Below are positions 6,501 through 64,000 of a stretch of 64,000 bases of DNA, piece by piece. Source of the stretch: Acidobacteriota bacterium. Lineage in GTDB: Bacteria; Acidobacteriota; Terriglobia; Bryobacterales; Bryobacteraceae. The DNA lies in NCBI GenBank assembly GCA_026393985.1, contig JAPKZB010000079.1:62001-126000 (forward strand), read 5' to 3'. The notes under the pieces are model-generated. The model was not told the origin of the DNA. It made no database searches and saw only the letters and a list, made by a program, of their open reading frames with translations. The position numbers and the translations under genes are program-made. Every line of letters begins with the position of its first letter. Positions within the stretch are counted from its first letter, which is position 1.

Positions 6501-6506
6501 TACAAT
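6501..6506 (+). promoter_or_regulatory. -10-like box TACAAT before the serine hydrolase
   Basis: TACAAT ends 8 bases before the ATG at 6515, just after the cox stop codon. Transcription would begin at or within a base or two of the start codon. No good -35 was found at normal spacing. Confidence 0.4.
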
Positions 6507-6514
6507 CACCCGGC

Positions 6515-7669
6515 ATGCGAGTACTCTTGGCAGGTTTATTGGGCGCGGCGCTCGGGGCGCTGCCGCTGTGGGCGCAGAACGGGATCGACATGGGGCGCCT
6601 TGAGAGAATTCCCGGCCGGATGCAGGAGTTTGTGGCAGCGGGCAAGGTGGCCGGGGTGGTGACGCTCGTCGGCCGGGCGAGCGGCGTGGTGGACCTCAAG
6701 GCGACCGGCTATTTCGACCTGGAAACGAAGGCGCCGCTGCGGACCGATCACATCTTCCAGATTCATTCGATGACCAAGCCCATGGTCGCCCTGGGCATTC
6801 TGATGCTGGCCGAAGAGGGCAAGCTGTCGATCGCGGACCCGGTGGAGAAGCACCTGCCCGAGTTTCGTTCGCTCGCCGACAAGATTACGCTGCAGCAGTT
6901 GATGACCCACACGGCGGGGATGCCGTTGAATCCGCCGCCCGGCATCGGGGAGTTGCACGGGTCGTTGCACAAGCCGCTGGCCGACGTGGCGCTTGTCTAT
7001 TCGCAGACGCCGGTGGCCTTCCGGCCGGGCAGCAAGTGGCAGTACAGTAACGCCGGCATCGCCGTGCTGGCCCGGGTGCTTGAGGTGCATTCAGGGATAC
7101 CCTTCGAGCAGTTTCTCACCAAGCGGATCTTTGAGCCGCTCGGCATGAAGGACTCCTATATATTCCCACCGAAGGAGAAATGGGGGCGGATGCCGACGGC
7201 CTATATCCTGCGGGACGGCGTGCCGGTGAAATACACCAGCGACCCGCTCGGCGAGGGCGCCATGAAATACCGCGCCGGGGCCAAGTACTCGCTGCCGGAG
7301 GGCGGCGTCTATTCGACGGCGAGCGATCTGTTTCTGCTCTACCAGACGCTGCTGCGGGACGGGAAGGCCGCCAACGGCTTCCGGCTGCTCTCGCCGGCTT
7401 CGGTGCGGCTGATGCGGATGGTGCACACGGGCGAACTGGCCACCAACGGGCCGGGGATGGGCTGGGGGCTGGGCGCCTACGTGGTCCGGCCGGGTTTTTC
7501 GCCGATGGGGATGAGCCCGGGCACCTACGGCCACGGCGGGCGGTACGGGACGTTCTACTTCATCGATCCGGTCAAGGACCTGATCGGGGTGTTTATGATT
7601 CACCGCGAAGGCGGCAGCGACGAGCGCACGGCCTTCGTGCAGATGGCTTATTCGGCGCTAGTCGAGTAG
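6515..7669 (+). CDS. Secreted serine hydrolase, class C beta-lactamase fold
   Basis: A 384-residue protein with a signal peptide ([20 protein letters not shown]). It has the SxxK nucleophile motif (SMTK, Ser85/Lys88), the second motif YSN (Tyr177-Asn179) and a late HGG (GHGGRYGTF) in place of KTG. This pattern is typical of esterase/DD-peptidase-like members rather than true resistance enzymes, so the substrate is unknown. Its last 12 bases overlap the convergent hemB gene. There is no Shine-Dalgarno site before the ATG; the -10-like box at 6501 suggests a leaderless message. Confidence 0.88.
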
Positions 7670-8629
7670 CCGCGCGGCGTCCTTGGCAAAGTAGGTGAGG
7701 ATGATGCCGGCGCCGGCGCGTTTAATGGCGGTAAGCGACTCCATCATCATGCGGTCGCCGTCGACCCAGCCGAGGCGGGCGGCGGCGACAATCTGGCTGA
7801 ACTCGCCCGAGACCTGGTAGGCGGCCAGCGGAACGTCGAAGCGGTCGCTGGCCTGGCGGATGATGTCGAGGTAGGCGAGCGCGGGTTTAACCATCAGGAT
7901 ATCGGCGCCCTCCTCAAGGTCGAGGGCCATCTCCCGCATCGCTTCGCGGGCGTTGGCGGGATCCATCTGGTAGGTGCGGCGATCGCCGAACTGGGGGGCG
8001 GATTCGGCGGCTTCGCGGAAGGGGCCATAGTAGCTCGAAGCGAACTTGGCGGCGTAGGCCATGATGGGCAGATCGGGGAAGCCCGCCTGGTCGAGCGCAC
8101 GGCGGATGGCGGCCACGCGGCCGTCCATCATGTCTGACGGCGCGATGATGTCGGCGCCGGCGCGGGCGTGCGAGACAGCCGAAGCGGCCAGCCACTCGAG
8201 GGTATTGTCGTTGTCCACGTCGCCGTCGACGATCTTGCCGCAGTGGCCATGCGAGGTGTACTCGCAGTTGCAGACATCGGTGACGACCAGCAGGCCGGGG
8301 ACCTCGCGCTTAATGGCGCGCGCGGCCCGCTGCACGATGCCCTCGTCGTCGTAGGCGCCCGTGGCGGTTTCGTCCTTGTGTCGGGGGATACCAAACAGAA
8401 TGACGCCGCCGATGCCGAGGGAGTGGATCAGCGCGCACTCGCGGACGGTCTCATCGATCGACATCTGAAAGTTCCCGGGCATGGCGCCGATCTCTTTGCG
8501 GATGCCCTCGCCTTCGACGATGAAGAGCGGAAAGATGAAGTTGGACGGCTGCAGGTGGGTTTCGCGGACGAGCGAACGGATAGCCGGGGTGCGGCGAAGA
8601 CGCCGGGGGCGATGGATCGGGAAGGGCAT
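7658..8629 (-). CDS. hemB: Porphobilinogen synthase (delta-aminolevulinic acid dehydratase)
   Basis: A 323-residue enzyme that condenses two 5-aminolevulinate molecules to porphobilinogen in tetrapyrrole synthesis. Zinc-type ligands are Cys120, Cys122 and Cys130 ([13 protein letters not shown]), and the two active-site lysines are Lys195 ([14 protein letters not shown]) and Lys248 ([11 protein letters not shown]). Length and the N-terminal arm ([24 protein letters not shown]) are standard. The gene stands alone, with no other hem gene nearby. Its promoter must overlap the end of the upstream secreted-repeat gene, because TAAAAT at 8637-8642 includes that gene's stop codon. Confidence 0.97.
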
Positions 8630-8636
8630 AGGCCCT

Positions 8637-8642
8637 ATTTTA
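8637..8642 (-). promoter_or_regulatory. -10-like box TAAAAT before hemB
   Basis: Read on the minus strand, TAAAAT ends 7 bases before the hemB ATG (8629), overlapping the TAA of the upstream gene at 8640-8642. The message would be leaderless or nearly so. Confidence 0.45.
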
Positions 8643-9614: not shown

Positions 9615-9620
9615 TATAAT
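9615..9620 (+). promoter_or_regulatory. Consensus -10 box TATAAT before miaB
   Basis: TATAAT ends 6 bases before the GTG at 9627, placing +1 on the start codon. There is no ribosome site between. The -35 region at 17 bp spacing is poor. Confidence 0.6.
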
Positions 9621-9626: not shown

Positions 9627-10958
9627 GTGGATCGCTCCTTTTATATCGAGACATTTGGCTGCCAAATGAACGTGCATGACTCTGAGAAGGTCATCGGCAC
9701 GCTCCGGGAGCGCGGCTATCTGCAGGTGCCGACGGCCGAAGAGGCCGGTCTGGTGCTCTACAACACCTGCTCCATCCGCGATAAAGCCGAGCAGAAGGTC
9801 TTTAACAAACTGCAGAACTTCAAAAAAGGAGCCAGTAAAGGCAACCAGGTGTTTGGCGTGCTCGGGTGCGTGGCGCAGCAAGAGGGCGAGAAGATCTTTG
9901 AACGGGCGCCCCATGTCTCCCTCGTAGTCGGTTCGGCGAGCTACACGAAGTTTCCGGAACTGCTCGTGCAGATTGAGCAGGGCGACCGCCGGGTGACCGG
10001 GCTGAGTCTGGATACCGAAGAGGCCTTCGACACGCCCTACACCCGCCGGGATAACCCTTACCGGGCGTTTGTCACCATCATCGAGGGTTGCGATAAAGCC
10101 TGCGCCTATTGCGTGGTGCCGTTCACGCGCGGCCCGGAGCGGAGCCGGACGGCCGATAGCGTCATCGAAGAGGTTCGCCGCCTGGCCGACCTGGGTTATA
10201 CCGAGATCACGCTACTCGGGCAGAACGTCAACTCCTATCGCGATCCTTCGGCCAAGCGCTGGGATTTTGCCACCTGTCTCGAGCAGGTGGGGCTCGTGCC
10301 GGGCATCCGGCGGGTGCGCTTTACAACGTCGCATCCGCGGGACTTTACCAAGGCGATTGTCGAGGCGATCGATGCGACGCCCTCCCTGTGCAATCACATC
10401 CATCTGCCGGTGCAGAGTGGTTCGAACCGGATCCTGACCGGCATGCAGCGGTTGTACACACGGGAGCAGTACCTCGAACGCATCCATTGGATGAAGGCGG
10501 CCCGGCGGCCCATGGCGATTACGACCGATATCATTGTTGGATTTCCGGGCGAGACCGATCAGGATATTGAAGATACGCTGGCCCTGCTTGACGAAGTGCA
10601 GTACGATGCGATCTTCAACTTCAAGTACTCGCCCCGGCCGAACACCCCGGCGTTGGTGCTCGGCGACCAGATTACCGAGGAAGAGAAGGGCCGTCGCCAC
10701 CTGCAAGTGCAGGAGCGGCAGCGGATGATCCAGATTCAGAATAACGCCAACTACGTCGGCGAGACCTGCGAGGTGCACGTCGAGTTCTTCAATCTGGCCA
10801 CCGGCCAGTGGGTCGGCAAGACGACCCAGCATAAGACGGTCAACTTCTCCCATCCGTCCGGCCAGGCGGCGGCGCTGCAGGGGCAGTATCTCGATGTGCT
10901 GGTCACGCGCTCCGGCCCCGTGTCGCTGGTGGGTGAAGCGGTTGGACAAGCGGCGTAG
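9627..10958 (+). CDS. miaB: tRNA-2-methylthio-N6-dimethylallyladenosine synthase
   Basis: A radical-SAM methylthiotransferase that adds the 2-methylthio group to i6A37 of tRNAs reading UNN codons. The UPF0004 domain holds Cys12 (FGCQMN), Cys48 (NTCSIRDKAEQK) and Cys81 (LGCVAQ) for one 4Fe-4S cluster. The radical-SAM motif is Cys155-x3-Cys159-x2-Cys162 (CDKACAYC), and a TRAM domain closes the ~443 residues. The frame is open far upstream, but homology begins at DRSFYIETFGCQ, so the GTG at 9627 is the start; a consensus TATAAT sits exactly 6 bases before it. It is followed after 19 bases by the DUF151 gene, in one operon. Confidence 0.95.
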   Translation: MDRSFYIETFGCQMNVHDSEKVIGTLRERGYLQVPTAEEAGLVLYNTCSIRDKAEQKVFNKLQNFKKGASKGNQVFGVLGCVAQQEGEKIFERAPHVSLVVGSASYTKFPELLVQIEQGDRRVTGLSLDTEEAFDTPYTRRDNPYRAFVTIIEGCDKACAYCVVPFTRGPERSRTADSVIEEVRRLADLGYTEITLLGQNVNSYRDPSAKRWDFATCLEQVGLVPGIRRVRFTTSHPRDFTKAIVEAIDATPSLCNHIHLPVQSGSNRILTGMQRLYTREQYLERIHWMKAARRPMAITTDIIVGFPGETDQDIEDTLALLDEVQYDAIFNFKYSPRPNTPALVLGDQITEEEKGRRHLQVQERQRMIQIQNNANYVGETCEVHVEFFNLATGQWVGKTTQHKTVNFSHPSGQAAALQGQYLDVLVTRSGPVSLVGEAVGQAA

Positions 10959-18747: not shown

Positions 18748-19041
18748 TTACCCGAGCAGCTTCTGCGCGATCGCTTCGAGCTTGTTGGCCAGAAGGACGT
18801 CTTTGGGCGTGATGCCACCAAGGTCGTGTGTCGTCAGGTCGATGGTGACCCGGTTCCAGACGTTGGACCACTCCGGATGGTGTTCCATGGCTTCGATCGC
18901 GATCGCCGACGTGGCCATGAACCCGAAGGCGTGGACGAAGTCGGCGAAGGCGTATTCGCGGTGCATTTTTCCGTTCACGAGCGTCCAGCCCGGCAGGGAA
19001 TCGAGGGCGGCGGCGAGTTCGGTGTCGTTCAGTTTGGCCAT
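18748..19041 (-). CDS. Pterin-4a-carbinolamine dehydratase family protein
   Basis: A 97-residue PCD/DCoH protein with the active-site pattern EAMEHHPEWSNVWNRVTIDL...THDLGGIT, complete with the paired His, Trp and final Asp. The enzyme recycles the 4a-hydroxytetrahydropterin formed by aromatic amino acid hydroxylases. No hydroxylase is nearby; in bacteria lacking one, PCDs have been linked to molybdopterin. Its ATG is 19 bases from the divergent MEMO start codon, with a shared TATGATA between them. The hydrolase-NamZ gene follows closely on the same strand, probably co-transcribed. Confidence 0.9.
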   Translation of the reverse strand: MAKLNDTELAAALDSLPGWTLVNGKMHREYAFADFVHAFGFMATSAIAIEAMEHHPEWSNVWNRVTIDLTTHDLGGITPKDVLLANKLEAIAQKLLG

Positions 19042-19047: not shown

Positions 19048-19054
19048 TATGATA
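19048..19054. promoter_or_regulatory. Interlocked divergent -10 boxes (TATGATA)
   Basis: On the plus strand TATGAT (19048-19053) ends 6 bases before the ATG at 19060. On the minus strand TATCAT (19049-19054) ends 7 bases before the ATG at 19041. One 7-bp near-symmetric sequence therefore seems to serve both genes, each without a leader. Confidence 0.5.
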
Positions 19055-19059: not shown

Positions 19060-20139
19060 ATGGGTATACGCCCGGAAATTGACGGTTTCCCCTCGAGCGA
19101 TCCGCAGCAGCCCGGCCTCGTTCTGCACGATCCGACGGGAATCTCCACCGCCATGCTGCTGGTGCCGCCCGCGCTCGTGCCGGCGCTGGCCGAAGATCCG
19201 CTGCCGCCGGAGCTCGCCGCGGCGTTGAGCGAGGCCGGTTTTCTGGAAGACGACAACTACGCCCGCCTGCGGGACTCCTTCACGCGCGCCGAAACGCTCC
19301 GGGCGCGCCACGGAGGGCCGGGCAACTATCCCACCGAGGGCGTGGCGCTGCGGCAGCTCTTCGATACCTGGTTTGCGCGGCCCGGTCTGGAGCGCCCGCT
19401 GCACGCCATCGCCGCGCCGCACGCGAGCCCCGAGCCAGCGCGCGGCTCCTACGTCAGCGCCTACACCGCCCTGGCGGCCAGCCTGACCAAGACCGAGGCC
19501 GCCGGCAAGACCTTCGTCGTGCTGGGTACCTCGCACCAGGGGGCCCGGGACCGGTTCGGCATGACGCGCAAGCGCTTCGTCACGCCGGTGGGCGAATCGC
19601 GGACCCGCTTGCCGGAGCCGCTCGCCAAGCTTGCTGAGATGGAGGACCCCTGCTTTGCTGTCGAGCACTCCATCGAGTTCCAGGTGGTCTTTCTGCAGTA
19701 CCTCTACGGGCCGGATATTGAAATTGTCCCGATTCTGTGCGGTCCGCTGACCTCGCCGCGCCATCCGTTCCTTGAGGCGCTCGGCGAGTGGTCGGAGCGG
19801 GAAGGCGACCGCCTGCGCTGGGTGCTGGGCGTCGACATGGCGCACAAGGGTCCGCGCTACGGCGACCGGGAGGCCCGGCGGGCTTATACCGATTCGATGG
19901 TGGAAATTGACCAGCGGGACCGGGACCGAATCGCCGCGCTGGCGGCGGGCGACCGGGACACGTTCTGGGCCCAGGTGCGGGAGCGCAACGACGACCTGAA
20001 CTGGTGCGGCACCGCTCCCTTCTACTCCTACCTGGCGGCGCATCCGTCCATGCGCGGGGAACTGCTCACCTACGAGCACTGGCAGATCGATCCCCGGAGC
20101 GTGGTGACCTTCGCGGGGATGACGTTTGGCCGCGGTTGA
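19060..20139 (+). CDS. MEMO1 family protein (AmmeMemoRadiSam system protein B-like)
   Basis: A 359-residue protein whose second part (~115-355) carries the MEMO signatures: AIAAPHASPEPARGSY, VVLGTSHQG, AVEHSIEFQVVFLQYLYG, GVDMAHKGPRYG and LNWCGTAPFYSYL. The conserved His/His/His/Cys set that binds copper or iron in MEMO proteins appears present. The N-terminal ~110 residues are an added domain with FPSSDPQQPGLVLHDPTG. Partners of the AmmeMemoRadiSam set (AMMECR1, radical SAM) are not seen here. Role unknown; perhaps metal handling or redox. It starts leaderless from the shared TATGATA. Confidence 0.85.
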   Translation: MGIRPEIDGFPSSDPQQPGLVLHDPTGISTAMLLVPPALVPALAEDPLPPELAAALSEAGFLEDDNYARLRDSFTRAETLRARHGGPGNYPTEGVALRQLFDTWFARPGLERPLHAIAAPHASPEPARGSYVSAYTALAASLTKTEAAGKTFVVLGTSHQGARDRFGMTRKRFVTPVGESRTRLPEPLAKLAEMEDPCFAVEHSIEFQVVFLQYLYGPDIEIVPILCGPLTSPRHPFLEALGEWSEREGDRLRWVLGVDMAHKGPRYGDREARRAYTDSMVEIDQRDRDRIAALAAGDRDTFWAQVRERNDDLNWCGTAPFYSYLAAHPSMRGELLTYEHWQIDPRSVVTFAGMTFGRG

Positions 20140-21467: not shown

Positions 21468-23233
21468 CAGGCTTCCTGATACTGCAGTTGATAGAGCTTC
21501 CAGTACAACCCGCGTTGGGCCAGCAGTTCGGCGTGGGTACCGGCTTCGCGCAGTTGCCCCTTGTGGAAGGCGAAGATGCGGTCGGCGTTCTGGATGGTGG
21601 AGAGGCGATGCGCAATCGAGATGGACGTTCTGCCGGTGAGGAGTTTCTTCTGCGCATCGCGGATGCGCAGTTCGGTGTCCGTCTCAACGCTGGAAGTCGC
21701 CTCGTCGAGGATGAGGATTTTGGGTTCGTGGACCAGTGCGCGGGCAAAGCTGACCAGCTGCTTCTGGCCGGTGGAGAGATTGGCGCCGCGTTCGAGAATG
21801 GGTTCGGCAAAGCGCCCCGGCAGCTGTTCGATGAAGTCGAGGAGATTGACCTCGGCCGCCGCGGCGGCCAGGCGGGCTTCGTCGATGCCCTCGCCGTCGA
21901 GGCTGATGTTGGAGCCGATGGTGCCGGTAAACAGATAAGGGTCCTGCAGGACGATGGCGAAGCGGCGGCGGAGGGCGACGGGGTCGAACTCGCGGATGTC
22001 GATGCCGCCCAGTTTGATCACGCCGCGCTGCACGTCATAAAAGCGCAGCAGCAGGTTGGTCACGGTAGTTTTGCCCGCGCCGGTGTGGCCGACGATGGCG
22101 ATGGCTTCGCCGGGGGCGATGGAGAAGCTGACGTCGCGCAGAACCCAGTCTTCGGCGTGGTAGGCGAACCAGACGTTTTGAAATGTGATGGTCAGGTCGT
22201 CGGGTAGCGGCCGGGGGGCCGCCGGAGCTGTAATGGCGACCGGGGTATCGAGCAGTTGAAAGATCCGTTCGCTCGCGGCGGTAGCCGACTGCAGAATGTT
22301 GTACTTCTCGCTCAGGTCCTGAATGGGCCGGAAGAAACGCAGCGAAAACTGGAAAAACGCAATGAGCACGCCGAGCGAGAGTCCACCGCCGGGCACCTGC
22401 CACCCCCCGTAGACGAGGATTCCGGCAAAGGCGACCATGCTGAGAAACTCCACCACCGGGTAGAACCAGCCGTAGGCGAAGACGCTCTCCTTGAAGGCGA
22501 ACATATGTTCGCGGTTGATAGCGGCGAACTCGTCGCGGGCGTGCGCTTCGCGGTTGAAGGCCTGCACCACCGCGATGCCGTTGATGTTTTCGTTGAGGAA
22601 GGCGTTGATGCGGGCGACGGCGAGGCGGATGCGGCGGTAGCTGGCCGAAACCTGGGCCCGGAAGCGCATGGTGGCCCAGAAGATGGCCGGGGTGACCAGC
22701 AGGAGGATCGCGGTGAGGCCGGGGCTCATCCACAGCAGCACGCCGAGCAGCCAGGTGAGCATGATGGCGTCGCCGAGGATGGCCACCAGGCCGGAGCTGA
22801 ACAGCTCGTTGAGCGTGTCGACATCGCTCGTGACGCGCGTAACGAGGCGGCCGACGGGGTGCTTGTCGAAGTAGCCGATGTCCAGATGGTGCAGCTTGGC
22901 CATCAGATCGCGGCGGAGCGCGAACATCGCCTGTTGGCCGGTGGACTGCATCAGGAGCGTTTGTCCGAACTCGGCCAGGAGGATCAGCACGGCCACGCCG
23001 AGCAGGAGCAGCGACAGTTGGGCGATGCCGGCGAAGGCGGCCGGGGCGCGTTGAACCAGATAGCGGTCGACGGCGATGCTGGTCAGCACCGGGCCAACCG
23101 ATTCGAGCAGCGAATGGACGGTGAGCAGCGCGACCGTGGCGGCCACCTGTTTCCGGTACGGCCGCAGATACACCGCGAGCCGGCGCAGCAATTGAACGTC
23201 GTACAGTTTGCCTTGAACCTGCTCTTGTTCCAC
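21467..23233 (-). CDS. ABC exporter, fused membrane and ATPase domains
   Basis: About 588 residues in the MsbA/LmrA-type half-transporter layout. Six helices occupy ~30-320; the nucleotide-binding domain follows, with Walker A GHTGAGKTTVTN, Q-loop FAIVLQDPYLF, signature LSTGQ (usual LSGGQ, a mild variant), Walker B ILILDEATSS and H-loop SIAHRLS. The substrate is unknown; drugs, lipids or peptides are possible. Homology begins at GTG 23233 (VEQEQVQGKLYDV), although the frame is open to 23353 over the truB start. A TAGACT box lies 7 bases before that GTG. Confidence 0.9.
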   Translation of the reverse strand: MEQEQVQGKLYDVQLLRRLAVYLRPYRKQVAATVALLTVHSLLESVGPVLTSIAVDRYLVQRAPAAFAGIAQLSLLLLGVAVLILLAEFGQTLLMQSTGQQAMFALRRDLMAKLHHLDIGYFDKHPVGRLVTRVTSDVDTLNELFSSGLVAILGDAIMLTWLLGVLLWMSPGLTAILLLVTPAIFWATMRFRAQVSASYRRIRLAVARINAFLNENINGIAVVQAFNREAHARDEFAAINREHMFAFKESVFAYGWFYPVVEFLSMVAFAGILVYGGWQVPGGGLSLGVLIAFFQFSLRFFRPIQDLSEKYNILQSATAASERIFQLLDTPVAITAPAAPRPLPDDLTITFQNVWFAYHAEDWVLRDVSFSIAPGEAIAIVGHTGAGKTTVTNLLLRFYDVQRGVIKLGGIDIREFDPVALRRRFAIVLQDPYLFTGTIGSNISLDGEGIDEARLAAAAAEVNLLDFIEQLPGRFAEPILERGANLSTGQKQLVSFARALVHEPKILILDEATSSVETDTELRIRDAQKKLLTGRTSISIAHRLSTIQNADRIFAFHKGQLREAGTHAELLAQRGLYWKLYQLQYQEA

Positions 23234-23240: not shown

Positions 23241-23246
23241 AGTCTA
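23241..23246 (-). promoter_or_regulatory. -10-like box TAGACT before the ABC exporter
   Basis: Read on the minus strand, TAGACT ends 7 bases before the GTG at 23233. The divergent truB start lies only 16 bases away, so the two promoters must overlap. Confidence 0.4.
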
Positions 23247-32753: not shown

Positions 32754-35180
<2,427 letters not shown>

Positions 35181-35848: not shown

Positions 35849-35854
35849 ATCTTA
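35849..35854 (-). promoter_or_regulatory. -10-like box TAAGAT before the aldolase-enolase pair
   Basis: On the minus strand TAAGAT ends 8 bases before the ATG at 35840, so the mRNA should be leaderless or nearly so. Confidence 0.35.
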
Positions 35855-42393: not shown

Positions 42394-42399
42394 AGTATA
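42394..42399 (-). promoter_or_regulatory. -10-like box TATACT before the metzincin gene
   Basis: On the minus strand TATACT (5 of 6 to consensus) ends 7 bases before the ATG at 42386; no ribosome site fits in between. Confidence 0.45.
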
Positions 42400-42407: not shown

Positions 42408-42872
42408 TCAGTGGCTGGACGGGGTGGCTTCGAGGTTGACGTTCTTCCAATCTCCCCGCATGATAGCCGTGCGAATCTCGGCGGCGGTGTACTTTTCCTC
42501 GTGCAACTGCTTGGCGAGCAGGGCTTCCTTCATGCAGGTGCCGCAGTGCGAGCTGTGGTTATCGCGGAAGCAGTCGAGCAGGCCTTTGTGGCCGGCCGAG
42601 CGGTCGCAGTAGCAGTAGCAGGGCTGCTGGGCGAGGATTTCGGGGATCTCTTTGGCGACCTGGTAGGCCATGCGGATGATGGGGTCGGTGAAGGTTTTCG
42701 GGTCGAGGGTAGGGGGGAAGGGTTTGGCGGCGGCGGCGGTTTCGTGGAAGTAGGGTACGAGCGGGGTGGGGGGCGTCTTCTTCACACTGGCGGCGGGCTC
42801 CGGCGTTGTCGGTGATTCGGTGGTGCAACCGGCGAGCAGCAGCAGAGGGAGGCAGAGAATGAGGGCGCGCAT
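42408..42872 (-). CDS. Lipoprotein with PCYCxC motif
   Basis: A 154-residue protein. A lipoprotein signal (LLLLLAGC, lipid on Cys16) is followed by a Pro/Thr-rich linker, then PCYCYCDRSAGHKGLLDCF and HCGTCMKEALLA. The PCYCGC family (here PCYCYC) is of unknown function; its dense cysteines suggest metal or redox chemistry at the membrane surface. Its ATG follows a TAGACT box by exactly 6 bases, within a palindrome shared with the divergent permease gene. Confidence 0.78.
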   Translation of the reverse strand: MRALILCLPLLLLAGCTTESPTTPEPAASVKKTPPTPLVPYFHETAAAAKPFPPTLDPKTFTDPIIRMAYQVAKEIPEILAQQPCYCYCDRSAGHKGLLDCFRDNHSSHCGTCMKEALLAKQLHEEKYTAAEIRTAIMRGDWKNVNLEATPSSH

Positions 42873-42878: not shown

Positions 42879-42900
42879 AGTCTAGCGGACCCGCTAGACT
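42879..42900. promoter_or_regulatory. Palindromic divergent promoter
   Basis: Arms AGTCTAGCGG and CCGCTAGACT form a perfect 10-bp inverted repeat around a 2-base centre. Each arm carries TAGACT reading outward, a -10-like box for the lipoprotein gene (6 bases before its ATG) and for the permease gene (12 bases before its ATG, with GGGAGAG in the leader). The symmetry could also be an operator. Confidence 0.5.
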
Positions 42901-43719: not shown

Positions 43720-44828
43720 AGCGCCTCTTTGAGGGCGGACAGCAGCAGGTCCACGTGGGCCGACTGCGAGCCTTCGCCCATCAGACCGATGCGGAATACC
43801 TGCCCGGCGAGGGGCCCGAAGCCGCCGAGGATCTCGATGCCGTGCCGCTCCATCAGCTTCTTGCGGACTTCGAGGTCGCTCACGCCGGCGGGGACTTTCG
43901 GCGTGTGGAGCGCCCACATGCGGTTCTCGGCCGGGACGAGCATTTCAAGGCCAAGCGCCTCGAGGCCGGCCGTGAGCTTGGCGGCGTTCGTCCGGTGGCG
44001 TTCGAAGCGGGCTTCGACGCCTTCGTCGAGGATCAGCGCGATGCCTTCGCGCAGGGCGTAGAACATGGAGATGGGTGCCGTGTGGTGGTAGCGGTGGGCG
44101 CCATCGTAGTACTCGCTGAGCAGCTTGAGATCGAGATACCAGGTGCGGATCGGAGTCTGCCGGGCGCGCAGGCGGTCCATGGCGCGGGGCGAGCAGGAGA
44201 TGGGCGCCAGGCCAGGCGGGCAGCTCATGCCTTTCTGCGTGCAGCTGTAGGCGATGTCGATGCCGACCGCGTCCATGTTGATGGGCATGGTGCCGAGCGA
44301 GGTGACGCAGTCGCCGATGGTGAGCGCGTCGACTTCGCGGGCGGCCTGCGCGATGGCGTGTCCGGGCGTCGAAACGCCGGTGGAGGTCTCGCCGTGGACG
44401 AAGGCGACTACCTGCGGTTTCTCGCGGTGGATGGCCTCGGCAGCCTCGGCGTCGCTGACCTTCTGGCCCCAGGGCTTTTCAATGCGAACGACGTTGGCCT
44501 GCTGGCGATTGCCCATTTCGGTGAGGCGGTCGCAGAAGTAGCCGTTGGCGAAGACGAGGAATTTCGACCCCGGTTCGACGAAGTTGGAGACGGCGGCCTC
44601 CATGCCGGCGCTGCCGGTGCCGGACAGGGCCAGCGTGAATGGATTCTGGGTGCCAAAGACCTGTTGGAGGCCGGCGCGGATCTCTTCGTTGACCTGGAAG
44701 AAGAACGGGTCGAGGTGACCGACGACCGGTTTGGCCATTGCCTCGTACACGCGGGGCGCCACCATGGACGGACCCGGTCCGAACAGCAGGCGCTTGGGCG
44801 GCGATAGAGGAGCGAGTGGAGCAGACAT
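43716..44828 (-). CDS. Alanine-glyoxylate / serine-pyruvate aminotransferase family protein
   Basis: A 370-residue class V PLP enzyme: LLFGPGPSMVAPRVYEAM, ALSGTGSAGMEAAVSN (phosphate-binding), VHGETSTGVSTPG, IGDCVTSLG and the Schiff-base Lys in YSCTQKGMSCPPGLAP. It probably transfers amino groups between alanine or serine and glyoxylate or hydroxypyruvate. The chosen start is ATG 44828 (MSAPLAPLSPPKRLLFGPGP); an in-frame ATG at 44858 lies beyond the -10 box. It starts 18 bases from the divergent hrpB TTG. Confidence 0.92.
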   Translation of the reverse strand: MSAPLAPLSPPKRLLFGPGPSMVAPRVYEAMAKPVVGHLDPFFFQVNEEIRAGLQQVFGTQNPFTLALSGTGSAGMEAAVSNFVEPGSKFLVFANGYFCDRLTEMGNRQQANVVRIEKPWGQKVSDAEAAEAIHREKPQVVAFVHGETSTGVSTPGHAIAQAAREVDALTIGDCVTSLGTMPINMDAVGIDIAYSCTQKGMSCPPGLAPISCSPRAMDRLRARQTPIRTWYLDLKLLSEYYDGAHRYHHTAPISMFYALREGIALILDEGVEARFERHRTNAAKLTAGLEALGLEMLVPAENRMWALHTPKVPAGVSDLEVRKKLMERHGIEILGGFGPLAGQVFRIGLMGEGSQSAHVDLLLSALKEAL

Positions 44829-44833: not shown

Positions 44834-44840
44834 TAGGATA
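44834..44840. promoter_or_regulatory. Interlocked divergent -10 boxes (TAGGATA)
   Basis: Plus strand TAGGAT (44834-44839) ends 6 bases before the hrpB TTG at 44846. Minus strand TATCCT (44835-44840) ends 6 bases before the aminotransferase ATG at 44828. The two elements share five base pairs, leaving both genes without 5' leaders. Confidence 0.5.
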
Positions 44841-44845: not shown

Positions 44846-47191
44846 TTGAGACTTCCAATTGACAGTCTGCTGCCGGAGATCGTGGCTTCGCTCGGCAAAA
44901 CCCCTAATTTGGTGATTGAGGCCCCGCCCGGGGCGGGGAAGACGACGCGGGTGCCGGCGGCGCTGCTTGCGGCGGGGATGGGCGAGGTGCTGGTGCTCGA
45001 ACCGCGCCGGCTGGCGGCGCGGTTGGCGGCGCGGCGCGTGGCGGCCGAACTGGGCGAGCGGCTGGGCGAGACGGTGGGCTATCAGGTCCGCTTCGAGGAC
45101 GTGGGCGGGCCGAAGACGCGGCTGCGCTTTCTGACCGAAGGGGTGCTGACGCGGCGGCTGCTGAGCGATGGGGCGCTGCGCGGGGTGCAGGTGGTGGTGC
45201 TCGATGAGTTCCACGAGCGGCATCTCGATGGCGATCTGGCGCTGGCGCTGCTGCTCGACCTGCAACGGCGGAAGCGGCCGGACTTGCGGCTGGTGGTGAT
45301 GTCAGCCACGCTCGATGCCGCGCCGATTGCGGCGCATCTGGGGGGCTGTCCCGTGCTGCGGAGCGAAGGCAAGCTCTACCCGATGGAAGTGGAGTATACG
45401 CCGCACTCCGGGGCGACGCTGGAGCAGCTGGTGGCGGGGGGCGTCGAGCGGCTGGCGCGGCAGGGATTGAGCGGCGATGTGCTGGTGTTTCTGCCGGGCA
45501 TCGCCGAGATGCGGCGGGCGCAGCGGCTGTTGGGTTCGTTTCGCACGGTGCTGCTGCACGGCGATCTGACGCCCGAGGAGCAGGACCTCGCCCTCGAATT
45601 GCGAAACGAACCCAAAGTCATTCTGGCGACCAACGTGGCCGAGAGTTCGATTACGATTCCCGGGGTGACGGCGGTGGTGGACAGCGGTCTGGCGCGGGTG
45701 GCGGTGGATTCGCCGTGGACGGGGATGCCGTCGGTGGAGGTGGCGCGGGTGAGCCAGGCGTCGGCGACGCAGCGGGCGGGGCGGAGCGCGCGGATGGCTC
45801 CGGGGCGGGTGGTGCGGCTGTATTCGCGGGAGGAGTTTGTGCGGCGCCCGCTGCAGGACGCCCCGGAGATTACGCGGCGGGAGCTGTCGCAGTTGTTGGT
45901 GAACCTGCACGGGTGCGCGGTGAAGGATCCCTTGGCGCTGCCGTGGCTGACGCCGCCGCCGGGGCCGGCGCTGGCGGCGGCCGAGACGCTGCTGGGCCGG
46001 CTGGGCGTGGTGGCTAACGGGGCGTTGACGCCCTTGGGCCGGCAGATTGCGCAGCTGCCGGTGCACCCGCGGTTGGGGCGCCTGATCGTGGACGGCGGGG
46101 AGGACGGCTGCCGGGCCGCGGCGGTGCTGTCTACGGGCGAGCGGCTGGAGGGCAAGCCTCCGCATCTGGTGGATTCGGACCTTTTCCTGCTGCTCGAGCG
46201 CCCTTGGGGGCCGCAGACGGTGCGGACGTATGAGCAGCTGCGGCGGGCGGCGCGGCCCGCGCGGAGAGACGACCAGGCGCTGCTCTTGGCGCTGACGGCG
46301 GCCTTCAGCGACCGGCTGGGCAAGCGGCGGCCGAACGGCGAGATTCTGCTGGCGGCGGGCGGGCAGGCGGCGCTGGCGGAGAGCAGCGGGGTGCGACAGG
46401 CGGAGTTGGTGGTGGCGATTGAGATGGAGAACCGGGGGACGCCGTTGATCCGGCTGGCGAGCAAAGTGGAGCCGGAGTGGCTGCTGGATCTGTTTCCGGA
46501 GCGGATGGAGAGCCGGGATGGCGTCGAGTGGAACCGGACGGCGGAGCGTGTCGAGCGGGTGAGCGCGCTGCTGTTTGACGGGATGGTGATTGAGGAGACG
46601 CGCAGCGGGGGGCCGGAGGCCGGGGCGGCGGCCGAGTTGCTGGCGGCCAAGGCGCTTGAGGCGGGCATGGAACGGTTTGCTGATGTGTCGGAGTTGATGG
46701 CGCGGTGGCGGTTCGCGGGGATGCCGGCGCCGGATTTGCAGCGGGCGATCAGCGGGGCGTGCTATGGGCTGCGGAGCTTTGCGGAGTTGAAGGGTCTGCT
46801 GGGGGACGGGGGGCTCGAGCGGATCTTACTGGAGGGCTTGGCGGATCGGGCGGTGCTGGAGGCGAAGGCTCCGGAGCGGGTGAAGCTGGCCAAGGGGCGG
46901 TCGGTGGCCGTTCACTACGTGGACGGGCAGCCGCCGTGGGTCGCCTCGCGGCTGCAGGATTTTTTCGGGATGCGGGAGACGCCGCGGGCGGGCGATACGC
47001 CGGTGGTGGTGCATCTGCTGGCGCCGAATCAGCGGCCGGTGCAGGTTACGCAGGACCTGGCGGGGTTTTGGGAGCGACATTATCCTGCTCTGCGGCGGGA
47101 GTTGGGGCGGCGCTACCCGCGGCATGCGTGGCCGGAGGATCCGCTGGCGGGGGGAGGGGGCGGATCCAGAACGTCTGACAGCAACCGCTGA
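44846..47191 (+). CDS. hrpB: ATP-dependent helicase HrpB
   Basis: A 781-residue DEAH-type helicase: Walker A APPGAGKTTRVPAALL, motif II DEFHERH, motif III MSATLDAAPIAAHL, LVFLPGIAEMRRAQ, ATNVAESSITIPGV and the arginine-finger region QRAGRSARMAPG, followed by winged-helix, HA2 and the C-terminal HrpB domain. RNA remodelling is presumed; the role is poorly known. TTG 44846 matches the family N terminus (RLPIDSLLPEI). Homology ends near WPEDP; the last 14 residues (Gly/Ser-rich) lie in the region overlapped by the convergent gene. Confidence 0.95.
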   Translation: MRLPIDSLLPEIVASLGKTPNLVIEAPPGAGKTTRVPAALLAAGMGEVLVLEPRRLAARLAARRVAAELGERLGETVGYQVRFEDVGGPKTRLRFLTEGVLTRRLLSDGALRGVQVVVLDEFHERHLDGDLALALLLDLQRRKRPDLRLVVMSATLDAAPIAAHLGGCPVLRSEGKLYPMEVEYTPHSGATLEQLVAGGVERLARQGLSGDVLVFLPGIAEMRRAQRLLGSFRTVLLHGDLTPEEQDLALELRNEPKVILATNVAESSITIPGVTAVVDSGLARVAVDSPWTGMPSVEVARVSQASATQRAGRSARMAPGRVVRLYSREEFVRRPLQDAPEITRRELSQLLVNLHGCAVKDPLALPWLTPPPGPALAAAETLLGRLGVVANGALTPLGRQIAQLPVHPRLGRLIVDGGEDGCRAAAVLSTGERLEGKPPHLVDSDLFLLLERPWGPQTVRTYEQLRRAARPARRDDQALLLALTAAFSDRLGKRRPNGEILLAAGGQAALAESSGVRQAELVVAIEMENRGTPLIRLASKVEPEWLLDLFPERMESRDGVEWNRTAERVERVSALLFDGMVIEETRSGGPEAGAAAELLAAKALEAGMERFADVSELMARWRFAGMPAPDLQRAISGACYGLRSFAELKGLLGDGGLERILLEGLADRAVLEAKAPERVKLAKGRSVAVHYVDGQPPWVASRLQDFFGMRETPRAGDTPVVVHLLAPNQRPVQVTQDLAGFWERHYPALRRELGRRYPRHAWPEDPLAGGGGGSRTSDSNR

Positions 47192-52943: not shown

Positions 52944-52951
52944 AGGATAAT
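52944..52951. promoter_or_regulatory. Overlapping divergent -10 boxes (AGGATAAT)
   Basis: Plus strand GATAAT (52946-52951) ends 6 bases before the ATG at 52958. Minus strand TATCCT (52944-52949) ends 10 bases before the ATG at 52933, where an AAGGA could still act as a ribosome site. Confidence 0.4.
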
Positions 52952-52957: not shown

Positions 52958-54808
52958 ATGCCCGAAGCTATAGTCTGGCGGCCGGATGCGGCGACAATCG
53001 AGCGGGCGCAACTCACCCGGTTTCTTGCGCAAGTGAGTTTGGGGTCGTATACCGAGCTAGAGGCGAAGGCGGCGGCGGACCCGGCGTGGTTTACCGGGGA
53101 GTGGCTACGGTTTCTCGATTTGCCCTGGGACCGGCCGTATACGCAGGTGATGGACTGTTCGCGCGGGATCGCCTGGACCCGATGGTGCGTGGACGGGGAG
53201 ATGAATATCGGGACGGCGTGTCTTGCGAAGGGGCCGGCGCGGCAGCCGGCGGTGGTGTGGGAGGGGGAAGAGGGCGTGACGCGGTCCTGGAGTTACCGGG
53301 CGCTGCGGTTGGCGGTGGAGCGGTGCGCGGGCGGGTTGCGGACGATGGGCATTCGGAAGGGTGATGCGGTGGGGGTGCATCTGCCGATGATGCCGGAGAC
53401 GGTGGCGGTGATGGTGGCGCTGGCGCGGATTGGGGCGGTGGCGGTGCCGCTGTTTACGGGGTTTGGGCCGTCGGCGATGGCGGCGCGGCTGCGGGATGTG
53501 GGCGCTAAGGCGGTGTTTACGTGCAATGCGTTTCCGCGGCGCGGGAAGCTGATTGAGGCCAAGCGGGCGGTGGACGAGGCGGACGCGGCGGAGTTGGTGA
53601 TTGTGGTCGAGCGCGTGGAGGGGTATGCGGTGGCGATGCGCCCGGGGCGGGACATCGGCTGGCGGGAGTTTTGCGAGTTGGCGGGGGACGCGGCGCCGGA
53701 GCGGGTATCGGCCGAGGATCCGCTGCTGCTGATCTACACTTCCGGGACCACGGGGGCGCCGAAGGGGATTCTGCATACGCACTGCGGCTTTCCCGTGAAA
53801 GGGGCGCAGGATATGGCGCTCAACATGGACGTGGGGCCGGGGACGCGGGTGAGCTGGCTGACGGATATTGGCTGGATGATGGGGCCGTGGCTGATTTATG
53901 GCAGTCTGCTGCTGGGGGCGACGATGGCGCTCTATGACGGAGCGCCGGAGCATCTGTGGGCGTTTACGGCGCGGCAGGGGGTGGAGGTGCTGGGGGTGTC
54001 GCCGACGCTGGTGCGGACGTTGATGGGGGCGCCGGTGCGGCAGGAGTTTTCGCGACTGCGGCTGCTGGGTTCGACGGGGGAGCCGTGGACGCGGGATGCG
54101 TGGATGTGGCTGTTTGAGAAAGTGGGCCGGGGGAGGCTGCCGCTGATCAACTACTCGGGCGGTACGGAGGCATCGGGGGGCATTCTGTGTTCGAACCCGC
54201 TGCTTCCGATAAAGCCCTGCGCGTTTTCGGCGCCTTGTCCCGGGATGGCGGCGGATATTGTGGACGCGGACGGAGAAGGGGTGGGGGAGCTGGTGGTGCG
54301 GCAGCCGTGGATTGGCATGGCGCGGGGATTTTACAAAGACCCGGCGCGATACGAGGAGACTTACTGGTCGCAGTTTCCGGGGGTGTGGCGGCACGGGGAC
54401 TTTGCGGCGCGGGACGAAGACGGGTTCTGGTACATCCACGGCCGGAGCGACGATACGATCAAGATTGCGGGCAAGCGGGTGGGTCCGGCCGAGGTGGAGA
54501 CGATTGTGACCTCGCACGGGGCGGTGCGGGAGGCGGCGGCGATTGGGGTGCCGGATGCGTTGAAGGGCAGCGAGTTGATTGTGTATTGCGTGCGGCAGGG
54601 GGAGGTGTCGGCGGCGGAGGTGGCGGACCTGGTGGCGCGGGAGTTGGGTAAGCCGCTGCGGCCACGGGAGGTGCGCTTTGTTTCCGGGCTGCCGAAGACG
54701 CGGAACGGGAAGGTGATGCGGCGGCTGGTGCGGGCGGCGCGGCTGGGGCTGCCGCTGGGGGATACGAGTAATCTGGAGAATCCGGAAGTATTAGAGGAGT
54801 TTCGATAA
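52958..54808 (+). CDS. Acyl-CoA synthetase (acetyl-CoA synthetase-like AMP-forming enzyme)
   Basis: A 616-residue ANL-superfamily enzyme. An ACS-type N-terminal domain (YTELEAKAAADPAWFTGEWL) precedes the adenylation core: IYTSGTTGAPKGILHTH, WLTDIGWMMGPW, NYSGGTEASGG, RHGDFAARDEDGFWYIHGRSDDTIK, and the catalytic Lys in KTRNGKVMRR. It activates a carboxylic acid, probably short or branched, as the acyl-CoA. It is distinct from the acs gene at 61958. The degenerate dioxygenase-like gene starts 4 bases downstream, suggesting a shared catabolic context. Confidence 0.88.
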   Translation: MPEAIVWRPDAATIERAQLTRFLAQVSLGSYTELEAKAAADPAWFTGEWLRFLDLPWDRPYTQVMDCSRGIAWTRWCVDGEMNIGTACLAKGPARQPAVVWEGEEGVTRSWSYRALRLAVERCAGGLRTMGIRKGDAVGVHLPMMPETVAVMVALARIGAVAVPLFTGFGPSAMAARLRDVGAKAVFTCNAFPRRGKLIEAKRAVDEADAAELVIVVERVEGYAVAMRPGRDIGWREFCELAGDAAPERVSAEDPLLLIYTSGTTGAPKGILHTHCGFPVKGAQDMALNMDVGPGTRVSWLTDIGWMMGPWLIYGSLLLGATMALYDGAPEHLWAFTARQGVEVLGVSPTLVRTLMGAPVRQEFSRLRLLGSTGEPWTRDAWMWLFEKVGRGRLPLINYSGGTEASGGILCSNPLLPIKPCAFSAPCPGMAADIVDADGEGVGELVVRQPWIGMARGFYKDPARYEETYWSQFPGVWRHGDFAARDEDGFWYIHGRSDDTIKIAGKRVGPAEVETIVTSHGAVREAAAIGVPDALKGSELIVYCVRQGEVSAAEVADLVARELGKPLRPREVRFVSGLPKTRNGKVMRRLVRAARLGLPLGDTSNLENPEVLEEFR

Positions 54809-58981: not shown

Positions 58982-60010
58982 CTAGCGGACGTTGCGGGCG
59001 GCCAGGCGGATGGTCTGGCGCGTGGCGTTGTTGGTGAGCACGAGATAGCCGTTTTCGTGGCGGACATCGTCGACCTGGTCGAAGCCGGGGGGGATGGCGG
59101 CGTAGAACATGTGGAAGGCGGCCGAGACTTGTGATTTGGCGGGGAGCCAGCGGTAGGTGGGGAGGTCGAAGAGCTTGCCGAGGCTGATGGCTTCGCGGCG
59201 CGAGACGTCAAAGGGCTGGGTGCCGAACTCGAGGCCGCGGGAGAGTTCGCCGGAGGCGGGGTAGTTGTGCCACTCCTGGAGCCAGGGGTAGTCGGCGCGG
59301 GGGAAGTAGTAGCCGAAGACGAGGCGTTTGTCGAGGTGGAGGGCGGTGACGAAGCCGTGGGTGCGGTTGGGGTCGATGGCGCAGCCGGTGTGGTCGAGGG
59401 AGTTGGCGCCGGGGGGGACGCTGCGGAGGTTGCGGGTGCCGCCGTTGCGCAGGGGGACGTGGGGATAGGTGAACTCGACGCCGGCGTTGAGGGTGGCCTT
59501 GGGGCCGCCTTTTTCGTCGGGGCGGGTGAGGCAGCGGCCGACGGAGGCGTCGACGACGGTTTGGCCGGGGGTGAGGAAGGGGGCGCCGATGGTGCCGTGT
59601 TCGGCCCAGTTGAGGGGACGGTCGAAGGCGAGTTCGTTGGTGACGGTGGTTTCGACGGTGATGACCTGTTCGCCGGGGAGGAGGGTGATGCGGCGGGTGA
59701 TGGCTTCATGAAGCAGGGGGAGGCGCGTGGAGAAGACGCCGGGCGCGGATTGGGTCCAGGATTGGCGAACGGCTTCGCCGTGGCCGGGGAGGCCGGCGGC
59801 CTGCTCTTCTTTGGAGGTGGGGCCGAAGCCGTCGAGGCAGAGGAAGTGGCCCTGGTAGTTGCCGCTGCCTTTCCACATGGGATTGGTTTGGGCGGGGTCG
59901 GCGAGGAGGAGGAGTTTGGTGAAGGCGCCGCCCGGGTTTTGGACGGAGAGTTCGAGTTTGTCGTTCTTGATGAGGGTGAGGTCGGCGAACAGGAGCAGGA
60001 GCGCGAGCAT
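58982..60010 (-). CDS. Secreted galactose mutarotase-like protein
   Basis: A 342-residue β-rich protein with a weak signal (MLALLLLFADLTLI). It has the aldose 1-epimerase-like start LIKNDKLELSVQNPGGAFTKLLL, a mid-protein RRITLLPGEQVITVETTVTNE, LNWAEHGTIGAPFL and DKRLVFGYYFPRADYPWLQEW. The fold assignment is by pattern only; catalytic His/Glu positions are not certain. The frame is open upstream, but ATG 60010 begins the hydrophobic leader. TAGAAT (60016-60021, minus) ends 5 bases before it, and the divergent gene starts 27 bases away. Confidence 0.68.
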   Translation of the reverse strand: MLALLLLFADLTLIKNDKLELSVQNPGGAFTKLLLLADPAQTNPMWKGSGNYQGHFLCLDGFGPTSKEEQAAGLPGHGEAVRQSWTQSAPGVFSTRLPLLHEAITRRITLLPGEQVITVETTVTNELAFDRPLNWAEHGTIGAPFLTPGQTVVDASVGRCLTRPDEKGGPKATLNAGVEFTYPHVPLRNGGTRNLRSVPPGANSLDHTGCAIDPNRTHGFVTALHLDKRLVFGYYFPRADYPWLQEWHNYPASGELSRGLEFGTQPFDVSRREAISLGKLFDLPTYRWLPAKSQVSAAFHMFYAAIPPGFDQVDDVRHENGYLVLTNNATRQTIRLAARNVR

Positions 60011-60036
60011 GCTGCATTCTACGTCAGAATAGAGGC

Positions 60037-61910: not shown

Positions 61911-61944
61911 GACGGGATAGGAGACACCATGATATCGCGGTTGG

Positions 61945-61950
61945 TAGAAT
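61945..61950 (+). promoter_or_regulatory. -10-like box TAGAAT before acs
   Basis: TAGAAT ends 7 bases before the ATG at 61958. GAGACA at 61921-61926 could be a weak -35 at 18 bp spacing. Confidence 0.45.
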
Positions 61951-61957
61951 CGCCAGA

Positions 61958-63910
61958 ATGACGCAAGACGCTAAACCCGTATCGCTTCCGACCCTGGTGC
62001 CGCCGTCGGAGGAGTTTGTCCGGCAGGCCAACGTGAGTGGGATGGAGGCTTATCGCGCGCTGTACGCGCGGGCTTTGAACAACACGGAGGAGTTCTGGGG
62101 CCAGTTGGCCGAGCAGGAGCTCGATTGGTTTGAGCGGTTTGAGAAGCCGCTTGAATGGAGCGCGCCGTTCGCCAAGTGGTTTGTGGGCGGGAAGATCAAC
62201 GTCTGCTACAACTGCGTGGACCGTCATGCGGAGAACGGGCGGGGGAACAAGGCGGCGATTATCTTTGAAGGCGAGCCGGGCGACCAGCGGACGATTACGT
62301 ATCGCGAACTGCAGCGGCTGGTGACGCGGTTTGCCAGTTCGCTGCTTGAGCTGGGCCTGCAGACGGGGGACCGGGCGGTGATCTACATGCCGATGATTCC
62401 CGAGGCCGCGATTGCGATGCTGGGCTGTGCGCGGCTGGGCATTCCGCACTCGGTGGTGTTTGGCGGGTTTTCGGCCGAGGCGTTGAAGGCGCGGATTCAG
62501 GACCTGGAAGCGGCGGTGGTGATTACGGCCGACGGCGGGTGGCGGCGCGGCAAGGAGATCCGGCTGAAGGATGCCGTCGATGAGGCGCTGCGGGAGTGCC
62601 CGACGGTGCGGCATACGGTGGTGTATCAGCGCACCGGTTCAGAAGTGAAGATGGAGAAGGGCCGGGACCACTGGTGGCACGTGCTCGATGAGGCGGCGAG
62701 CGAGAACGTGGCGCCGGTGCCGCTCGACAGCGAGCATCCGCTGTATGTGTTGTACACGTCGGGGACGACGGGCAAGCCGAAGGGGATTCTGCATACCTCG
62801 GCCGGGTATCTGCTGCAGGCGACGATGACGTCGAAGTGGGTGTTCGACCTGAAGGAGCAGGACACGTACTGGTGCACGGCGGACGTGGGTTGGGTGACGG
62901 GGCACAGCTATGTGGTGTACGGGCCGCTGTCGTGCGGGGCGACGAACTTCATGTACGAAGGGGCGCCGGATACGCCGGCTTTTGACCGCTGGTGGCGGCT
63001 GATTGATAAATATAAAATTTCAGTTTTCTACACCTCGCCGACGGCGATCCGGGCGTTGATCCGGCAGGGCGACCATTGGCCGGAGCGTCATAACCTGGGT
63101 TCGCTGCGGTTGTTGGGTTCGGTGGGCGAGCCGATTAATCCGGCGGCGTGGGACTGGTATTACCGGGTGATTGGCGGGAGCCGGTGTCCGATTGTGGACA
63201 CGTGGTGGCAGACCGAGACGGGGGCGATTTTGATTTCGCCGATGCCGGGGGCGACGCCGCTCAAGCCGGGTTCGGGGACGATGCCGATGCCGGGGATTGT
63301 GCCGGAGATTGTGGACCACAACGGGCACGCGGTGGAGGACGGCAAAGAGGGCTTCCTGATTATGCGGAAGCCTTGGCCGAGCATGCTGCGGACGATCTGG
63401 GGTGATGCGGAGCGGTACAAGGATCAATACTGGTCGCGCTTTCCGGGCTACTACTTTACGGGGGACGCGGCGCGGAAGGACAAAGACGGCTACTTCTGGA
63501 TTTTGGGCCGGGTGGACGATGTGATGAACGTGAGCGGCCACCGGCTGAGCACGATGGAGATTGAGTCGGCGCTCGTGAAGCATCCGGCGGTGGCCGAGGC
63601 GGCGGTGGTGGGTAAGCCGCACGAGATTACGGGGCAGGCGGTTTGCTGCTTTGTGACCTTGAAGAAGAACGCCAAGGACGTCGATACGCTCGGCAAGGAG
63701 TTGCGGCAGTGGGTGGCGCACGAGATTGGACCGTTTGCGCGGCCGGAGGAGATTCGGTTTACCGAGTCGCTGCCGAAGACGCGGAGCGGGAAGATTATGC
63801 GGCGGCTGCTGCGGGAGATTGTGACATCGAACACGGTGGCGGGCGATGTGACGACGCTCGAAGACATGAACGTGTTGACGTCGCTCGCGGCGCAGAACGA
63901 TGAGGATTAG
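61958..63910 (+). CDS. acs: Acetyl-CoA synthetase (AMP-forming)
   Basis: A 650-residue enzyme that makes acetyl-CoA from acetate, ATP and CoA. Family marks: [91 protein letters not shown], and [15 protein letters not shown] with the Lys that is commonly regulated by acetylation. The length is normal. It is divergent from the XylA-like gene, with 47 bases between starts, and no ribosome site is visible. Confidence 0.96.
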
Positions 63911-63977
63911 TTTTTTGAATCAAGGGTAGTTGTATTTTTATTACGCGGCGGAGTGGGCAGCGTGCCATCCTATGGGC

Positions 63978-64000
63978 ATGCAGCCTCCCGCCGCCAACCA
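63978..64000 (+). CDS. Possible start of a downstream gene (3' partial)
   Basis: ATG at 63978 reads MQPPAAN to the window edge. CATCCT (63966-63971) ends exactly 6 bases before it, the same geometry as other starts in this window. Only seven codons are visible, so nothing about function can be said. Confidence 0.3.

Follow-up and report, generated by a model that had tools for sequence, protein, structure and literature searches.

Within the 64,000-nucleotide stretch of DNA analyzed here (the window), from a soil bacterium of the Acidobacteriota, many genes carry a short −10-like box a few bases before the start codon, which raises the question of whether their messages begin at the start codon itself, as an initial annotation had proposed from 15 such boxes. 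All 15 are present at the gaps claimed, each followed by a long frame that begins with ATG, GTG, or TTG. Fourteen fit TANNNT; the GATAAT of the gene at 52958 does not. The TAGACT box assigned to an ABC exporter is likewise present but suits a minus-strand gene at 23233. We rejected an alternative match for the exporter, at 30609 on the plus strand, which is antisense to a longer gene and whose box is absent from both orthologous loci seen (L175 and L176). The boxes, including one that was previously unlisted, are given below (gap, bases between box and start codon).

19048..19054, both strands: putative symmetric −10 box TATGATA, common to the next two genes
within 19048..19054, plus strand: TATGAT, gap 6, before the MEMO-like gene at 19060
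within 19048..19054, minus strand: TATCAT, gap 7, before the pterin-4a-carbinolamine dehydratase gene at 19041 (families of the pair from Pfam)
44834..44840, both strands: putative symmetric −10 box TAGGATA, common to the next two genes; weak model call
within 44834..44840, plus strand: TAGGAT, gap 6, before hrpB, TTG at 44846 (Pfam)
within 44834..44840, minus strand: TATCCT, gap 6, before a class-V aminotransferase gene, ATG at 44828 (Pfam)
32777..32782, plus strand: TAGCAT, gap 6, before serS, GTG at 32789
9615..9620, plus strand: TATAAT, gap 6, before a MiaB-like radical SAM gene, GTG at 9627 (Pfam UPF0004, Radical_SAM, TRAM)
8637..8642, minus strand: TAAAAT, gap 7, before hemB (name from the initial annotation), ATG at 8629
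35849..35854, minus strand: TAAGAT, gap 8, before an aldolase-like gene, ATG at 35840
42394..42399, minus strand: TATACT, gap 7, before a metzincin-like gene, ATG at 42386
42879..42884, minus strand: TAGACT, gap 6, before a PCYCGC-motif gene, ATG at 42872 (Pfam); the box sits in one arm of a palindrome
23241..23246, minus strand: TAGACT, gap 7, before the gene at 23233, GTG
61945..61950, plus strand: TAGAAT, gap 7, before acs, ATG at 61958
6501..6506, plus strand: TACAAT, gap 8, before a start at 6515 that lacks coding-statistics support
52946..52951, plus strand: GATAAT (not TANNNT), gap 6, before an AMP-binding synthetase gene, ATG at 52958 (Pfam); weak
60016..60021, minus strand: TAGAAT, gap 5, before a mutarotase-like gene, ATG at 60010; weak
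4252..4257, minus strand: TATCCT, gap 7, before the gene at 4244, ATG; previously unlisted

The background of TANNNT per position is 5.5 in 486 starts when starts are fixed and 16.7 in 486 if any coding-supported start may be picked. By our own arithmetic from this measured background, ≈25 starts and four positions yield up to ≈3.4 chance matches under free start choice, and the original estimate of about one was too low. With 14 TANNNT boxes set against that figure, the excess over chance in the window is real.

We examined a 1.264-Mb sample of the 5.925-Mb genome using a custom-written gene finder that places starts by coding statistics alone, excluding from the counts genes with a coding score of 15 or less and those open at the end of a stretch. 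Because the finder's start calls are often off, we tallied twice, once with coding-only starts held fixed and once with every coding-supported start allowed. TANNNT lies 6 to 8 bases before the start in 67 of 486 unit-first genes (coding-only starts), where 16.4 are expected, and in 48 of 443 following genes, where 7.1 are expected. The Poisson p for the coding-only-start peak is ≈7e-21, and the 67 unit-first cases fall at gaps 6, 7, and 8 in the numbers 31, 13, and 23. The sharp distance peak predicted by the initial annotation thus exists away from the window, and it holds with the window left out; TANNNT at a fixed short distance, above chance, is the mark of TA-led genes. Among 78 named relatives, a tally that omits the near-copies L175 and L176, the counts are 62 of 540 against 16.3 expected and 23 of 294 against 3.5. 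The same code finds a peak in Deinococcus radiodurans, a control with leaderless genes (plasmid MP1, 10 versus 1.6), at gaps 6 to 7, and no peak in Escherichia coli (0 versus 3.3 expected). Some other members of the phylum have a weak peak, such as G028 with 3 versus 2.0 (fixed starts).

A two-motif model places 153 of 941 genes in the sample (16%) confidently in a leaderless-like class, including 93 of the 486 unit-first genes, and the earlier claim that a large share of messages lack leaders was therefore overstated. The model box reads T.74 A.88 c a a T.96 at gaps 6 to 8; its peak vanishes once upstream bases are shuffled, and an unseeded run gave a blurred motif. Gap 6 is the commonest class (81 of 153), and gaps of 8 to 9, which may correspond to leaders of 1 to 3 bases, account for 34. 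GTG and TTG starts are included, as had been claimed, with 33 and a few (5) of the 153, respectively. We rejected the idea that the start codon sets the gap, which the serS relatives had suggested (GTG with 6, ATG with 8), since ATG in the genome itself also peaks at 6 (58 of 115). No −35 element is found upstream of the boxes: TTG is not enriched at offsets 22 to 25 in the 153 cases, and the genes, in which the TTG-like −35 of canonical sigma-70 promoters was not seen ≈16 to 18 bp upstream of the −10, are classed as −10-led only. An extended −10 TG occurs in only 20 of the 153. SD-like words are enriched too, and Shine-Dalgarno genes coexist with leaderless-like ones.

Applied to the window, the same model scored 52 genes and called 13 confidently leaderless-like, with nine more for which a box at gap 5 to 9 is the best but weak reading. 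From the earlier list, ten genes are confident, four are weak (hrpB, the aminotransferase, the 52958 synthetase, and the mutarotase-like gene), and the 6515 start is not chosen, coding statistics favoring an internal TTG at 6539. Three confident genes were not on that list (2621, 4244, and 58477), and only 4244 looks clear; the box of 2621 is GACGAT, and 58477 also has an SD-like GGAAGGAG.

Several boxes are kept at the same distance while the flanks change: those of the MEMO/pterin and hrpB/aminotransferase pairs and, in part, that of serS. TAT(G/C)ATA is retained between the MEMO and pterin dehydratase genes in all eight orthologous pairs of the genus, our own included, and TAGGATA with its 18-bp spacing is invariant at hrpB/aminotransferase in all eight genus genomes examined, again counting our own. 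Among serS relatives (77 of 80 loci; L233, L241, and L246 were omitted, their matches starting past residue 1), 33 have TANNNT at gaps 6 to 9, including 18 at gap 8, and 25 have none within 30 bases; TACAAT stands at gaps 10 to 27 in 13 loci. In L176, the aldolase-like gene has TAATAT and the metzincin-like gene TAAACT at the same gap amid changed flanks. The TAGACT of the 23233 gene is kept in both L175 and L176 but is weak as a footprint, because the flanks are conserved there as well.

The window contains two close divergent pairs, with start codons 19 bp (MEMO/pterin) and 18 bp (hrpB/aminotransferase) apart. Such spacing recurs: the start codons of 21 of 153 divergent pairs are 17 to 29 bp apart, most at 18 to 19 and 21 to 25. 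Boxes occur on both sides in 8 of 22 pairs at 10 to 30 bp versus 2 of 107 pairs separated by more than 60 bp (Fisher p 7.6e-6); in 5 of the 22 close pairs, TANNNT is on neither side. Elsewhere, 6 of 128 divergent pairs in the 78 named relatives lie at 20 to 29 bp and none at 30 to 48, and one of 12 in E. coli lies at 30 bp. Of eight other sampled genomes, G017 has two pairs (17 and 22 bp) and G066 one (29 bp), and the other six have no divergent pair at 30 bp or less. Scans for exact patterns gave 118 matches versus 32 in the control for the 23-bp pattern in 101 family genomes. The 18-bp pattern gave 192 versus 111 outside the genome's own class in 297 phylum genomes (a sum over 117 rows with a forward match, all-zero rows omitted), was not enriched in the family outside the genome's own genus (67 versus 56, p 0.37), and fell below the control in family f4, which belongs to the genome's own class (9 versus 25). 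We give the 18-bp scan little weight, because its control, the pattern read backwards, differs in dinucleotides and sites in orthologous loci do not count as independent.

Promoters that fire in both directions around a symmetric −10 element were reportedly described by Warman et al. in 2021. In such promoters, divergent transcription starts are mostly 18 bp apart, with 10 and 23 bp also common, around a common −10 (PMC12825309, PMC10268837). A symmetric −10-like box between divergent starts at these distances is found here as a matter of sequence geometry, and the start codons cluster in a similar way, although those studies mapped transcription starts whereas our distances run between start codons and are read from the DNA alone. 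The word leaderless is absent from the main texts of both papers. In the titles and abstract openings of the open-access literature, searched with limited terms, we found neither divergent leaderless pairs sharing a −10 nor divergent genes 17 to 29 bp apart around one symmetric or overlapping −10.

Given the observed boxes, spacing peak, conservation, and start-codon spacing, we hold it very likely that the boxes are sigma-70-type −10 elements that position the transcription start at the start codon or within ≈3 bases of it, that ≈1/6 of the genes in this Bryobacterales-like genome of the Acidobacteriota yield leaderless mRNA, and that some close divergent pairs probably share a two-way box. 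The placement of +1 on the start codon would follow from −10 geometry. Translation would then begin at a 5′-terminal AUG or GUG with no Shine-Dalgarno site involved, and the remaining genes would use SD sites. Leaderless initiation proceeds via initiator tRNA and IF2. That no leader is needed would explain why some divergent start codons lie only 17 to 29 bp apart, separated by one symmetric TANNNTA (18 to 19 bp) or by a pair of boxes that overlap in TA (22 to 23 bp). A single short element of this kind probably drives transcription both ways. We lean toward a stronger version, in which a single symmetric or self-overlapping −10 of 7 to 10 bp launches two leaderless mRNAs and the opposite start codons are both +1 positions. 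The 18- and 22- to 23-bp geometry of bidirectional promoters would thus be written into divergent start-codon spacing, the first codons of each gene would be the upstream promoter DNA of the other, and the two genes may compete, as the box would admit a single polymerase at a time.

The same boxes could be real −10 elements whose messages mostly carry very short leaders of 1 to 10 bases, translation still being SD-independent. We regard this as possible but rather unlikely. It would accommodate the second mode at gap 8 with fixed starts, the confident cases at gaps 8 to 9, and the gap-8 and distant TACAAT boxes of the serS relatives, but with +1 taken to lie 7 bases past the box, the commonest gap of 6 would place it at the start codon. 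AT-rich starts aid SD-less translation, and the missing −35 would also suit an AT-rich, unstructured stretch that assists ribosome binding on leadered mRNAs and contains no promoter element. That reading is improbable, because the signal resides in fixed positions (T1, A2, T6), the bases in between being loose, and is not one of general AT richness, because one symmetric double-stranded box is common to two divergent genes and kept while flanks change, and because the spacing fits that which published work on E. coli and Salmonella gives for divergent transcription starts. Free start choice does triple the background, and the starts of the initial annotation were picked by eye, yet chance combined with convenient start codons has next to no probability: the peak holds with coding-only starts, without the window, in relatives, and as conserved boxes, and its presence outside the window already refutes this explanation.

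Promoter-proximal starts of this kind, the reading that we favor, have precedent. TA-led leaderless genes carry TANNNT ≈12 bp upstream of the start, and leaderless genes were predicted in three of three Acidobacteria at a mean of 13.3% (9.7–19.4) (Zheng et al. 2011, PMC3160421). The present 16% falls within that range, and the finding is of a known kind; our work concerns another genome of the phylum and adds conservation among relatives and the divergent pairs. We saw no leaderless figure for Acidobacteriota in the parts of PMC10783764 consulted. Loss of bS21 was rejected as the cause of leaderless use: of 149 genomes from the window's phylum, 148 contain PF01165, whereas the Thermus, Deinobacterium, Thermotoga, and Corynebacterium control genomes are not among its matches, so leaderless use is unexplained by such loss. 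If the boxes fire both ways, divergent start-codon spacing would reveal bidirectional promoters directly from genomes of leaderless-rich lineages. Start codons are misplaced when prediction takes no account of such boxes; coding statistics alone missed those of the MEMO gene, hrpB, the aminotransferase, miaB, acs, and the pterin dehydratase.

All 15 -10-like boxes from which the initial annotation had read many genes in the window as leaderless were recovered by exact match, each at the gap (bases from box to start codon) claimed for it, ahead of a long-frame start codon. The pattern TANNNT accommodates every listed box except GATAAT, and the box assigned to the ABC exporter is present but should be attributed to the gene that starts at 23233 on the minus strand. 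Because that list was partly picked by eye, we ran the test away from the window, sampling 1.2 Mb of further stretches from the same assembly (5.925 Mb, 96 contigs). Genes were called with a periodic Markov model blind to upstream signals, and TANNNT was tallied by distance to the chosen start. The anticipated distance peak extends beyond the window, as seen in a first 464-kb sample with the window removed. Among 486 genes leading a unit, TANNNT occurs 31, 13, and 23 times at gaps of 6, 7, and 8, where an average position has 5.5; the 443 genes that have a neighbor on the same strand no more than 60 bp away yield 48 matches against 7.1. Gap 8 forms a second mode, and no -35 signal was detected upstream of the boxes; the mechanism proposed below accounts for neither. 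Shine-Dalgarno-like words are likewise enriched in this sample. With the same code, Deinococcus radiodurans plasmid MP1 gave 10 against 1.6 (72 unit-first genes) and Escherichia coli K-12 gave 0 against 3.3 (43 unit-first genes).

The share of such genes was estimated on 941 genes using two motifs with free spacing and a null class. This model assigns 153 genes confidently to the box-led class, about 16%, with gaps of 6 (81 genes), 7 (36), 8 (24), 9 (10), and 5 (2) and with ATG (115), GTG (33), or TTG (5) starts; 93 of them lead a unit. The peak disappears once upstream bases are shuffled. Because a weak TANNNT served as the seed of this model and an unseeded run on a smaller sample blurred the motif, we rest the case on the distance counts. 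Leaderless genes in Acidobacteria are not a new prediction: figures of 9.7–19.4% were given for three members in 2011 (PMC3160421), a range that includes our ≈16%.

The peak recurs in relatives. The nearest named genomes by serS are metagenome-assembled and labeled Acidobacteriaceae, Acidobacteriales, or Bryobacterales, labels that suggest a Bryobacterales-like genome here; 78 named relatives give 62/540 against 16.3 and 23/294 against 3.5. Among eight further sampled genomes of the phylum (unit-first genes, starts fixed by coding statistics), the peak ranges from clear in G017 (11 against 4.1), G024 (8 against 1.0), and G167 (9 against 2.5) to weak in G155 and G094 (each 3 against 1.7) and G028 (3 against 2.0). 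Individual boxes are also retained. The MEMO-like gene diverges from a pterin dehydratase gene (Pfam assignments), and TAT(G/C)ATA, its middle base varying among genomes, is common to all eight orthologous pairs in the genus (ours included), with start codons 18-19 bp apart. Six other same-genus MEMO copies with an alignable start have otherwise unrelated upstream sequence; in five, TANNNT sits at gap 5 or 6, the remaining one carries CATAAT, and the three copies from g13, a genus of another family, lack TANNNT. The hrpB and class-V aminotransferase starts lie exactly 18 bp apart in 8/8 genus genomes, where TAGGATA is invariant and five of the ten other spacer bases vary, on both sides. In the near-copy locus L176, the aldolase and metzincin boxes are altered in sequence with TANNNT and gap kept. 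Among 77 serS relatives, TANNNT lies at gap 6 in 9, 7 in 3, 8 in 18, and 9 in 3, and 25 have none within 30 bases. TACAAT lies 10-27 bases upstream of serS at loci L177, L178, L180-L185, L187-L189, L192, and L195, a placement suggesting short leaders rather than none.

Divergent genes show a further regularity. In our sample, 21 of 153 divergent pairs (coding-only starts) have start codons 17-29 bp apart; other close pairs lie at 10 bp (one), -1 (two), and 30-42 bp (seven). The hrpB pair is missing from the 21 because coding statistics picked other starts for it. TANNNT at gap 4-9 flanks both sides in 8, one side in 9, and neither in 5 of the 22 pairs separated by 10-30 bp, against 2, 35, and 70 of the 107 pairs beyond 60 bp (two-sided boxes, Fisher p = 7.6e-6). 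In the two window pairs, at 18-19 bp, the boxes of both genes merge into a single symmetric TANNNTA, and in several pairs at 22-23 bp the two boxes overlap by a self-complementary TA. Across 101 family genomes, the 23-bp form occurs at 118 sites against 32 for the backwards-read pattern. For the 18-bp form the tally is 83 against 58, with 16 against 2 supplied by three own-genus genomes; the remaining 67 against 56 show no enrichment, and family f4 of the same class falls below control (9 against 25). Further CAT-N5-TANNNTA-N5-ATG matches in our genome lie at G000:C6:60249-60271, G000:C17:107838-107860, and G000:C30:33869-33891, and two other genomes, G009 and G017, have sites similar or identical to these.

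These data establish position-specific -10-like boxes that are conserved and regularly spaced, and they establish how far apart divergent starts lie. In the mechanism we propose, +1 would coincide with the start codon's first base, shared boxes would fire in both directions, and ribosomes would initiate at the mRNA 5' end. For divergent transcription starts in E. coli and Salmonella, the most frequent reported separation is 18 bp, and 10 and 23 bp are frequent too (PMC12825309, PMC10268837), whereas the similar spacing in our genome is between start codons, known from sequence. If both messages were leaderless, start codons would be expected at similar spacing, and our genome agrees. Our searches of an open-access library did not turn up leaderless starts combined with a shared bidirectional -10, and this combination is the part that merits a bench test.

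One divergent spacer in the window contains an inverted repeat:

42879-42900: palindrome AGTCTAGCGG-GT-CCGCTAGACT, with arms of 10 bp, flanked by the PCYCGC-motif gene (42872) and, diverging from it, the ABC2-type membrane gene (42913)

One arm holds the -10 box of the PCYCGC-motif gene, and the palindrome, also present in the near-copy L175, looks like an operator. The hrpB start (44846) is apparently TTG in 8/8 genus genomes, so a leaderless hrpB mRNA would have UUG at its 5' end, which is usually regarded as a poor codon for leaderless initiation. Of 149 Acidobacteriota genomes, 148 matched ribosomal protein bS21 (PF01165), and only G108 did not.
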